Assembly: GCF_017094505.1 (NCBI RefSeq)
Contig: NZ_CP064787.1
Span: 310,001-374,000, forward strand
Direction of reading: 5' to 3'
Source of the DNA: Halapricum desulfuricans
GTDB lineage: Archaea; Halobacteriota; Halobacteria; Halobacteriales; Haloarculaceae
Length of the DNA stretch: 64,000 bases
The position numbers were made by a program, and so were the translations under genes. Shown here piece by piece: positions 1,521-45,968 of the stretch. Below the pieces are notes generated by a model, which was not told the DNA's origin, searched no databases, and saw only the letters and a list, made by a program, of their open reading frames with translations. The number at the start of each line of letters is the position of its first letter. Position 1 is the first letter of the stretch.

Positions 1521-1957
1521 TGTATGACCCCCATATGTCGGGTGTGGGGTAGCTCTTCACTCGAAAAGCGGAGCCATATCTTAGTAAACAAACGCCACAT
1601 TCCCAGCGCGTGGGAAGGCTCACACGCAGCGGTAGATTCAAGTATGTGAGACCGATCGCGGCCGCAAACGCTCTGTCTGCCGGTGCGGTTCGTCGGAACG
1701 CCCACCCCATATATACGGGGTTACAGAATCGCGTATATCGCGAGACTGTGCGAATTTGGTTCTGCACCTGTTACAGCGGCCGTTGCGAACTCACCCCGGG
1801 GTCAAGTGGTTCGAGACGACTCCGGCGTCTCGTCATCACGGAAATCGAAGATTTCCGTACGGCCCTGGGGCAGTCGCTTTGTATCGCCTGTGCATCTGTT
1901 CCGGGTCGACCGCATGACTGCGACGGTCGCACCGATACGTCGGTACAACGGCCACTA
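1521..1957. other. 437-base non-coding region with palindromes and a solo TnpB-element end
   Basis: No plausible gene is present; open frames here lack haloarchaeal composition. It holds the etfB promoter on the minus side, a hairpin with CCCC and GGGG arms around an AT core (1705-1720), a small palindrome with TCGCG/CGCGA arms (1729-1743), and the three-way-junction element at 1794-1870 described separately. The region is richer in A and T than its surroundings and looks like a landing zone for mobile DNA. Confidence 0.6.
1794..1870 (-). repeat. Solo end of IS1341-type (TnpB) element
   Basis: A 77-base fold with outer arms CCCCGGGGTC (1794-1803) and GGCCCTGGGG (1861-1870; two changes that still allow G-U pairs) enclosing two hairpins: CGAGACG/CGTCTCG (1812-1832) and CGGAAATC/GATTTCCG (1839-1857). 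Read on the minus strand, the joining segments TGATGACGAGA and CTCGAACCACTTGACCCC match the right end of the tnpB element at 27884-27960 closely, and the left end at 26524-26599 less so. No transposase gene accompanies it, so it is a solo scar or non-autonomous copy. Related palindrome-associated transposable elements (PATEs) are known from haloarchaea. Confidence 0.8.
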
Positions 1958-2176
1958 TCAGTCCTCGGGGCGGCCGTGATCGTTCGGGCCGGCGATGTCC
2001 AGCGGGCGGAGCCACAGTGCCCAGACGAGGAGAACGCCGGCGCCGTAGCCGCCGTACCAGATCACCGTGCCGAGCGTGCCGTAGCCGAACTGGGTCAGCG
2101 CGTACTTGGCGAGCCCGGGGACGAGGACGACCGCGGCCAGGAGCAATCCACCCGTCACGAGCTGTGATCGGTCCAT
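1958..2176 (-). CDS. Small two-helix membrane protein
   Basis: A 72-residue protein with two predicted membrane helices (about 6-30 and 35-56) and a charged C-terminus ending in GRPED. The ATG at 2174-2176 was chosen because the sequence upstream in the same frame is non-coding and antisense to glmU. It is transcribed divergently from the glmU-like gene across a 93-base shared promoter region. Family not recognised; small proteins of this kind beside housekeeping genes are common in haloarchaea. No function is proposed. Confidence 0.7.
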   Translation of the reverse strand: MDRSQLVTGGLLLAAVVLVPGLAKYALTQFGYGTLGTVIWYGGYGAGVLLVWALWLRPLDIAGPNDHGRPED

Positions 2177-26469: not shown

Positions 26470-26661
26470 GGGTGTCCTCACGGCCGGACGAACAAAACGC
26501 TTTACAAGCGGTCTAGGAGAATGCCCCGGGGTCGTCCGGAAATCGGAGATTTCCGTGATCACGAGAATCAAAGATTCTCGGACGACTTGACCCCCGGGGT
26601 TGAATCCGATAGACAGAAATACAAAACATTAAGTGAACATATCTCTAATCAAGAGAAAGCG

Positions 26662-27951
26662 ATGGAGTACAGTCACCGCTACCACGCCTATCCGACACAA
26701 CAGGTAGCGGCTGAACTAGAACGACACATCGACGTTCATCGCCAAGCGTACAACTACACTCGGTACGAGTACGAGAACGTGGACGCCGACAATATCGGCT
26801 CCGCGTACAAACACCACAACCGACTTCCCGACTGGAAAGATGAGTTCCCTGTCTTCTCGGAAGTCAACTCGAAGGCTCTGCAACGAACCGTCACACGGTT
26901 CTACCAGAACCTCTCGGGCCTCTCCGAGCAGAAACAGAACGGGAACAAGGTCGGGAAGCTCAAGTGGAAGTCACCGAGGGAGTTCCAGAGTATGACGTAC
27001 TCGCAGTCCGGCTTCGAACTCAAAAACACGAGTGGCCGACGTGCAACGCTCTGGCTCTCGAAAATCGGTGACATCAACATCCGCTACCACCGCGACATCC
27101 CTGACGAAGCGGACATCAAAGAAGTCACGGTCAAGAAAGAACGGACTGGCGAGTGGTTCGTCTCGTTCGGTCTCGAAACCGATGACGCTGACTTACCCGA
27201 GAAACCCGCGCTGGACGAGTTAGATTCAAGCAACAGCGTGGGTATCGACCTCGGAATCCTCAACTACGTCCACACGAGCGATGGGAAGACCGTGGATTGG
27301 CTCGACCTCGAAGACGAGTACGAGCGACTCCGCCGTGAGCAACGCAAGCTCTCACGGAAGGAGAAAGGGTCGAACAACTACGAGAAACAGCGTCGGGAAG
27401 TGGCGAAGGTCAAACGTCATATCCGCCGGAAGGTCCTGGACTACCAGCAGAAGATTACGACGTGGCTGGTCCGCGAGTACGACGCAGTGTTCGTCGAGGA
27501 CCTGGACGTGAAGAGAATGTTGGAACAGTCGCACAACGCTCGCAACAAGCAGGACGCGGCGTGGCGACAGTTTATCACCCTCCTTGATTACAAGGCCGAC
27601 CTGTACGGCTGTCACGTCGTGCAAGTCGAAGCGCGAGGCACCACCAAAGAATGTGCGTCGTGTGGTGTGGAGACAGCGAAGTCCATCTGGGTACGGGAAC
27701 ACTCCTGTCCGTCGTGCGGATTCGAGACGGACCGGGACGCGAACGCGGCGATGAACGTCCTGCAACGCGGCTTTTCTGAACTAGGGCTGGGATGGCCCGA
27801 AGATACGCCCGTGGAGACTGCGCTCCCTACGGACACACCTGACTTTCAGCGTGTGTCTGCAAAGCGCGTCGTCGAAACGGGAAGCCTCGGGGTCGTACGG
27901 AAGACGCCGTCTTCCGTGATGACGAGAGACGAAGTCCCTCGAACCACTTGA
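26662..27951 (+). CDS. tnpB: TnpB, RNA-guided nuclease of IS1341-type element
   Basis: 429 residues. TnpB proteins are RuvC-like endonucleases guided by an RNA from the element's right end and are ancestors of Cas12. All three catalytic acids are present: Asp196 in GIDLGI, Glu279 in FVEDLD, Asp359 in DRDANAAMN, and the four zinc cysteines are Cys331, Cys334, Cys349 and Cys352. The ATG at 26662 starts the usual MEYSHRYHAYPT. The last 22 residues are coded by the right-end fold itself, and the stop TGA lies in its outer stem. The enzyme looks intact. Upstream AT-rich DNA (26610-26650) can serve as promoter. Confidence 0.92.
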   Translation: MEYSHRYHAYPTQQVAAELERHIDVHRQAYNYTRYEYENVDADNIGSAYKHHNRLPDWKDEFPVFSEVNSKALQRTVTRFYQNLSGLSEQKQNGNKVGKLKWKSPREFQSMTYSQSGFELKNTSGRRATLWLSKIGDINIRYHRDIPDEADIKEVTVKKERTGEWFVSFGLETDDADLPEKPALDELDSSNSVGIDLGILNYVHTSDGKTVDWLDLEDEYERLRREQRKLSRKEKGSNNYEKQRREVAKVKRHIRRKVLDYQQKITTWLVREYDAVFVEDLDVKRMLEQSHNARNKQDAAWRQFITLLDYKADLYGCHVVQVEARGTTKECASCGVETAKSIWVREHSCPSCGFETDRDANAAMNVLQRGFSELGLGWPEDTPVETALPTDTPDFQRVSAKRVVETGSLGVVRKTPSSVMTRDEVPRTT

Positions 27952-27960
27952 CCCCGAGGC
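27884..27960 (+). ncRNA. Candidate omega RNA scaffold at the tnpB right end
   Basis: In characterised IS200/IS605 and IS1341 elements, the 3' part of tnpB and the right end are transcribed as an omega (reRNA) guide, whose spacer is the DNA just past the element. Here the 77-base fold overlaps the tnpB 3' end; the predicted guide would start at about 27961 (GGTTCACTCACC). The RNA and its boundaries are inferred from family knowledge, not seen directly. Confidence 0.55.
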
Positions 27961-28343
27961 GGTTCACTCACCGCGACAGTCTCGTGCGTTCGATACCGAT
28001 TTCGATTGTGCCGACGCTATATGCTTCTAAATAGGCCTCTTAGCGACACTTTTGACGGTTGGCTCGCGCCATCTGTATGGCGCGTGACGAACGCGCCAGA
28101 CTCTCGGCTGTCGTGATGTGCCCGCATCGAAAGCCGTCGCTGTGACTCTTTCCCCGACCCCTCTCCGCTTTTTCGAGAATCCCAGACCGCCCGTCTCATC
28201 GGTCGCGTCGCTATATAGTTGGATAGTACAATATAGATGTAATAGCAACGAATTTTATGCTTCTTCCAGTATGTACGCCTGAGCGTCGACACGCATCCGA
28301 GCCGAACACTCCACCAGAACGCTTGCGAGTCCCGAGTCAGACG
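27961..28343. other. 383-base non-coding region after the tnpB element
   Basis: No gene was recognised. It holds two mutually exclusive hairpins sharing one arm: GCGCCAT/ATGGCGC (28066-28083) and TGGCGCG/CGCGCCA (28078-28098). A TATA-like block CTATATAGTTGG (about 28210-28221) and a very AT-rich stretch with AATATAGATGTAATAG (28230-28245) precede the gene at 28344 by 100-130 bases, so that gene may have a leader or a nearer promoter (ATTTTATG, 28253-28260). Confidence 0.5.
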
Positions 28344-45477: not shown

Positions 45478-45968
45478 GGCTGGCCCCGGTCGCCGTCGGC
45501 GTTCGGTTCGTCGTCCTGTCCGTTGGTCGTCCGACGGTCGGCGCTCTCGTCGCCGAGATACCGCAGCGCGATCGCGGTGAACGGCACCGCGAGCAGCGAC
45601 GGTCGATAGGGAGGTTCGAACGCCGCCGCGACGTCGCCGAGGGGTGCGATCCAGACCCCCGGTCCGCCCGCGATCGCGCCGAGGAGCGTCCCCAGAAGGT
45701 CCGTCCCGGCGACGATCCACAGCATCGCGCTCGCCATGACGACGAGCGCCTGATTGGGCCGGGCCGCGAGCCCGCCGCGCGCGGCACCGAGGTAGAACCC
45801 GCCGGCCGAGAGCAACACGATCGACCGCCAGAGGACGTATGTTCCCGTCAGCGTCACGAACGGTATCGACTCGCCGATCTTGAGCCCGAACGCGCCGCCG
45901 AGTGCGCCGATGCCGGCCAGTCCGACTGCGATACCGAGGATCGCGACGTAGAATTCGTCCCGGCGCAT
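45474..45968 (-). CDS. Membrane protein in the feo operon
   Basis: 164 residues with about four membrane helices (around 7-28, 36-60, 70-100, 110-128) and an acidic hydrophilic tail. It starts directly after the feoB stop codon (zero spacing) and overlaps the FeoC-like gene by four bases, so it is translationally tied to ferrous iron uptake. Family not recognised. A role as a partner of FeoB is inferred from position only. Confidence 0.75.
   Translation of the reverse strand: MRRDEFYVAILGIAVGLAGIGALGGAFGLKIGESIPFVTLTGTYVLWRSIVLLSAGGFYLGAARGGLAARPNQALVVMASAMLWIVAGTDLLGTLLGAIAGGPGVWIAPLGDVAAAFEPPYRPSLLAVPFTAIALRYLGDESADRRTTNGQDDEPNADGDRGQP

Follow-up and report, generated by a model that had tools for sequence, protein, structure and literature searches.

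The window is a 64,000-nucleotide stretch of the Halapricum desulfuricans genome (contig NZ_CP064787.1, positions 310,001 to 374,000), and it contains a tnpB transposon, used here as the reference element, and, far from it, a short gene-less copy of the transposon's end structure, which we call a solo. The genome (G000) is 2.94 Mb in one contig, in which the TnpB domain PF07282 has 14 matches and the TnpA family PF01797 has one. This sole tnpA is accompanied by a tnpB, and the pair is bracketed by two copies of the same end structure, at ~460 to 462 kb. The features of the solo and of the reference element are as follows.

1769 to 1784, minus strand: would-be guide AACGGCCGCTGTAACA, 16 nt, adjoining the right-end terminus
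1785 to 1889, minus strand: complete solo (left-end terminus, hairpin with insert, right-end terminus), 105 nt, with the architecture of other solos
1785 to 1806, minus strand: right-end-type 3' arm and terminus CTTGACCCCGGGGTGAGTTCGC; the family consensus ends in TTCAC
1807 to 1862, minus strand: two-hairpin repeat within the terminal hairpin's loop, 56 nt in this copy and usually 54 nt; absent from near-identical TnpB ends and found elsewhere
1863 to 1889, minus strand: left-end-type terminus with the outer stem's 5' arm, AGGCGATACAAAGCGACTGCCCCAGGG; the sequence agrees with that of left ends and other solos and differs from that of right ends, where tnpB coding sequence comes first
1890 to 1894, minus strand: target-like pentamer TGCAC beside the left end, from flank comparison; the family consensus is TNTAC
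1958 to 2176, minus strand: 72-codon ORF with a hydrophobic product; it has the same strand as the solo and stops ~70 nt before it
26506 to 27967, plus strand: reference tnpB element, 1462 bp, after the target TTTAC
26532 to 26585, plus strand: two-hairpin insert of the left end, L type
26662 to 27951, plus strand: tnpB, 429 aa, with Pfam OrfB_IS605 and Cas12f1-like_TNB; the ORF ends inside the right-end hairpin
27806 to 27886, plus strand: covarying RNA scaffold within the final codons of tnpB, immediately 5' of the right-end hairpin; the solo is without it
27893 to 27946, plus strand: two-hairpin insert of the right end, R type

The earlier note had claimed a three-way-junction fold at 1794 to 1870 (minus strand), and this is confirmed: the coordinates hold, and the entire fold can be aligned to the right end of the tnpB element (at 27884), with which it has both sequence and structure in common. 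Copies of the fold were initially found by a 15-nt pattern, before the covariance model. Nine copies from the genome have compensatory changes in all three helices, with 95.0% of cells paired, compared with 87.0% in shuffles, and with 21 double-change cells, compared with 6.1 in shuffles, a value that none of 500 shuffles reaches. In a covariance model search of its own genome, the solo scores 84.4 bits (E = 1.1e-17), which is partly circular, since the model was built from nine sequences that include the solo. There is no match to Rfam at the gathering threshold in the window. The tnpB-sense RNA of the solo folds at -35.3 kcal/mol (z = -2.9), compared with -45.1 kcal/mol (z = -4.6) for the intact right end, and the opposite (plus) strand of the solo folds at -44.3 kcal/mol (z = -4.9). 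The outer stem of the solo has two substitutions. These are A-C mismatches on the RNA strand but allow wobble pairing on the opposite one, in line with the poorer folding of the RNA strand.

Although the position given in the earlier note is right, the extent is too short. With both termini, the feature runs from 1785 to 1889; it has no gene, is too short for a transposase, and has its hairpin and termini in common with the tnpB element. The window copy reads TGCAC, followed directly by AGGCGATACAAAGCGACTGCCCC...GGGGTGAGTTCGC, so that both termini are present. The TGCAC pentamer is apparently one substitution away from TGTAC, and there appears to be one substitution in each of the two terminal pentamers. 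The same fold, in the same orientation, is also found at the left end of the reference tnpB element (~26523 to 26601), where the earlier note had missed it, and the element is thus flanked by direct repeats of ~75 nt. The left boundary of this element is between 26505 and 26506, where homology to G001, G002, and G005 stops exactly, after TTTAC; its right boundary is placed where the conserved TTCAC terminus and a short right-flank match to G001 suggest that it would be.

The covariance model has 31 matches in G000, several of which are opposite-strand echoes of one site, and at least 1 match in 44 of the 57 genomes of the family. The 57 strong copies with flanks sort into left ends, right ends, and solos: right ends are preceded by a tnpB reading frame, left ends and solos are preceded by the terminus TNTAC/AGGCGG (the slash marks the boundary), and right ends and solos have a TTCAC-like pentamer at their end. 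G000 has at least eight terminal-only solos, a count read from printed sequences rather than scripted. Solos are common in related genomes, so that the window copy is not the isolated case that the earlier note had allowed for. That note had also described the feature as a right end without its gene, of which the absence of a gene stands and the right end alone does not; the left-end terminus is also present, and both ends are fused with the gene deleted.

Sister species carry element-free alleles of three solos (G005 1334005, G000 250410, and G002 C16:2702). These solos lie 3' of TNTAC, and no target duplication is seen in the alignments, in which the G002 case is the cleanest and divergence makes the edges less sharp for G005 and G000. 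The empty alleles are without any end sequence, and the suggestion that such a copy is an excision scar is not supported. No full-length allele was found at any solo site. The flanks of the window solo (the left colinear to 1737 and the right from ~1957) are at separate loci in G001, G002, G003, and G005, so that deletion of the core in situ and arrival as a solo would be indistinguishable here. The interval 1737 to 1957 is a synteny breakpoint, with the genes on its two sides at separate loci in these four relatives, and the flanks of the solos at G000 1773404 and G005 1464490 are likewise apart in relatives. Recombination between repeat copies as the source of the rearrangement is unsupported, since the other sides of both G000 breaks (L215 and L216) have no match to 1738 to 1970. 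A second dispersed repeat of ~70 to 80 nt, at 1888 to 1968, abuts the solo, and similar copies recur often in G000 and G001.

In near-identical TnpB elements of other haloarchaea, the terminal structure is a simple hairpin, CCTCGGGG-CTTGA-CCCCGAGG, and the junction form is this simple hairpin with GGGG and CTTGACCCC separated by an insert of 54 nt. Simple-hairpin right ends include that of Natribaculum breve L241, whose TnpB has 95% amino acid identity over residues 1 to 411, and a simple solo without the insert is present in G000 at 45675. The comparison indicates that the two inner hairpins did not belong to the TnpB end originally and form a separate unit of 54 nt (56 nt in the window solo) in the loop of the simple hairpin. 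This unit starts with TCGT, ends with ACGA or ACCA, and has two hairpins with compensatory changes; its inverted terminal repeats are TCGT...ACGA in left-end-type copies and an imperfect TCGT...ACCA in right-end-type copies. At several sites, there is a long form of ~108 nt in place of the common 54-nt form. The insert of L193 (G005 2455852) resembles an internal deletion product between the two forms. Three near-identical gene-less elements of ~400 to 450 bp (L188, L191, and L192, at G005 1470402, 223814, and 1081252) pair a left end of the junction type with a right end of the simple-hairpin type, and these copies are a sign of recent multiplication.

In most of the contexts that were read, the unit lies in near-terminal palindromes of IS605-type elements and PATEs, with exceptions that include a tnpA gene; it is also found in other hairpin families and in sequence overlapping tnpB. 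In G005, the unit interrupts a tnpA that is contiguous in G000 and G025, bringing with it an in-frame stop. No target duplication is found for the unit when interrupted tnpA is compared with uninterrupted tnpA or when simple hairpins are compared with occupied ones. The 54-nt unit interrupts tnpA at what is seemingly the same codon position in L382 (G005 727729) and L400 (G171), and this common insertion site may go back to one event.

In its described features, the unit resembles the SMR-A repeats of Haloquadratum (HqIRS42, HqIRS43, and HqIRS55), which insert into near-terminal palindromes (PMC3119063). Shared with these SMR-A repeats are the inverted terminal repeats, the absence of target duplication, and the location in near-terminal palindromes of IS605-type elements and PATEs; the length of SMR-A, ~110 bp, compares with ~108 nt for the long form and 54 nt for the common form of the unit (PMC3119063). 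Unlike SMR-A, the unit described here is found across the order and inside a tnpA gene. Its model matches 133 of the 146 sampled haloarchaeal genomes, which means that the mobilization of SMRs, called enigmatic in 2011 (PMC3119063), can now be studied order-wide.

The small repeat is widespread. We suggest tentatively, as a possibility somewhat short of an even chance, that the 54-nt unit is an independently mobile minimal repeat of nearly all haloarchaea that prefers the loops of TnpB-element hairpins (the one at the end of the guide RNA among them), sometimes enters tnpA, and, by making the ends of an element alike, promotes deletion of tnpB and so gives rise to solos. Identical copies within one genome (in G173, G066, and others) were rejected as proof of independent movement, since all of them are inside longer repeated elements.

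The alternative to a separate unit is that the whole three-way junction is native to the ends of this TnpB family and that the simple hairpins are deletions. Many Halapricum elements do carry the inner unit at both left and right ends, in distinguishable versions that suggest a long co-evolution. However, the unit has ends of its own (TCGT...ACGA or ACCA) and is found in unrelated contexts, including a tnpA with an uninterrupted counterpart and tnpB-related sequence, and, of the named TnpB ends that were printed, more have the simple CCTCGGGG hairpin than any other form. We therefore consider a native junction unlikely.

Twelve positions tell the commonest left-end insert from the right-end insert, and at these positions the right ends preceded by tnpB are R wherever they can be scored, while the commonest left-end type is L throughout and a second type of left end shows RLLLLRLLLLRR or RLLLLRxxxxRR. 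Among mixed solos, LLLLLRRRRRRR is the most frequent pattern, and the remaining solos are all R, all L, or like the second left-end type. The mixture of left-end and right-end sequence in several solos is as would be expected for the product of recombination between the ends. The occurrence of LLLLLRRRRRRR at several sites could reflect the movement of a single recombinant lineage instead of recombination that happened many times. The insert of the window solo, which was left out of the coded table owing to its length and was read from the sequence, has the pattern RLLLLRxxxxRR; this pattern is also found in left ends, so that the recombination point of the window solo itself is not pinned down.

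Solos would form through loss of the gene by recombination between an element's two similar ends, whose shared homology the 54-nt inserts lengthen. Some solos may afterward move in trans by means of the single TnpA of G000. Solo LTRs of retroelements are a familiar parallel: there, too, two similar ends recombine and one copy resembling an end remains. The likeness is limited to this one end-like copy after recombination; the ends of TnpB elements are IS200/IS605-type hairpins and are unrelated to LTRs by descent.

Based on the two termini around one hairpin, the absence of a gene, and the empty alleles of sister solos, the earlier note's reading of the feature as a non-autonomous (PATE-like) copy is borne out. 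We consider it very probable that the solo is a terminal-only remnant (terminal-only PATE) of a haloarchaeal TnpB (IS200/IS605-type) transposon, with a two-hairpin repeat nested in its one hairpin. It is a known kind of genomic debris and very probably not a concealed guide-RNA source. In 2011, PATEs that are terminal-only and 52 bp long, formed by repeat-mediated deletion of the core, were described in Haloquadratum (PMC3119063). Those of Haloquadratum walsbyi (HqIRS46 and ISHwa23 derivatives, 52 bp), which were attributed to repeat-mediated core deletion (PMC3119063), likewise have fused termini, one near-terminal palindrome, and no gene, and their lack of target duplication is matched by the sister solos studied here. 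Unlike the H. walsbyi PATEs, the window solo is in another genus and has 49 nt without its insert (a calculated length) and 105 nt with the two-hairpin insert; the likeness is one of described architecture. Beyond the Haloquadratum paper (PMC3119063), we found nothing further in the literature on solo or MITE-like TnpB ends. The substitutions in both terminal pentamers and the two mismatches in the outer stem give the window copy the look of an old, inactive element. It is probably not a working guide RNA and is most likely without use to the host.

The synteny breakpoint found at the solo in all relatives examined would suit a right-end fragment that was left by a rearrangement and has no left end, but the 5' flank of the solo, ACAGGCGATACAAAGCGACTGCCCC, matches the flanks of left ends and other solos (e.g., TGTACAGGCGGTACAAGGCGACTGCCCC in L185) and differs from the tnpB coding sequence found ahead of right ends, and this makes a bare fragment very improbable.

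Slightly less probable again is co-option of the solo by the host as a terminator, a 3'-end stabilizer, or a regulatory RNA of the neighboring gene. The solo is intergenic, ~70 nt downstream of a same-strand ORF, and its plus-strand fold is stable, yet it is not conserved at this place in relatives and its substitutions resemble decay. The one solo that is at the same place in two species, L049 (G000 750613) and L179 (G002 C23:101672), also argues against such a use: the surrounding DNA is nearly identical between the species, yet the solo carries several differences of its own, which indicates that it is under no extra constraint. The hairpin loop reads GAA in L049 and TTC in L179, as if the loop were inverted.

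Compared with the remnant that we favor, a guide-RNA source would need features that the solo does not have. The RNA in the solved ISDra2 complex comes from the 3' end of tnpB plus the right end, with a 116-nt scaffold (PMC10097598), and in Halobacterium, tnpB loci give rise to sotRNAs (PMC12558985). The solo resembles these TnpB right-end (omega) RNAs in its right-end hairpin and terminus, and unlike them it is without the part of the scaffold that is encoded in the 3' end of tnpB. In the present family, that part is an 81-nt scaffold with 18 pairs, 98.6% of cells paired, and 42 double-change cells, compared with 13.5 in shuffles (0 of 500 as high). In the solo, this scaffold is absent and left-end sequence is in its place. 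The only exact match of the would-be guide is its own site, and the next best in the genome has 2 mismatches. The 72-codon ORF is a possible source of read-through transcripts into the solo, and no TATA-like promoter was seen upstream of the solo by eye.

Right-end-type features that run up to the terminus, the tnpB genes of G000, the possibility of read-through from the ORF, and the making of such RNAs by haloarchaeal tnpB loci (PMC12558985) would all fit a stand-alone guide-RNA gene (one of the possibilities raised in the earlier note), here with a leftward transcript whose guide, read from below 1785, would serve a TnpB elsewhere, but with the conserved, covarying scaffold of the last tnpB codons replaced by left-end sequence (the ISDra2 RNA includes both parts), substitutions in both terminal pentamers, two outer-stem mismatches on the RNA strand, no second guide match in the genome with fewer than 2 mismatches, and no promoter seen by eye, this is the least probable of the readings and is not supported.

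A right-end-like fold far from tnpB therefore need not be a hidden guide-RNA gene. Since the ends of haloarchaeal TnpB elements often hold a nested repeat, models of guide-RNA structure built from one species could take the repeat for scaffold. In L254 and L279, the scaffold region of the tnpB 3' end has an extra two-hairpin insert and is 118 nt long, compared with 72 to 87 nt; this insert is perhaps another small repeat family.
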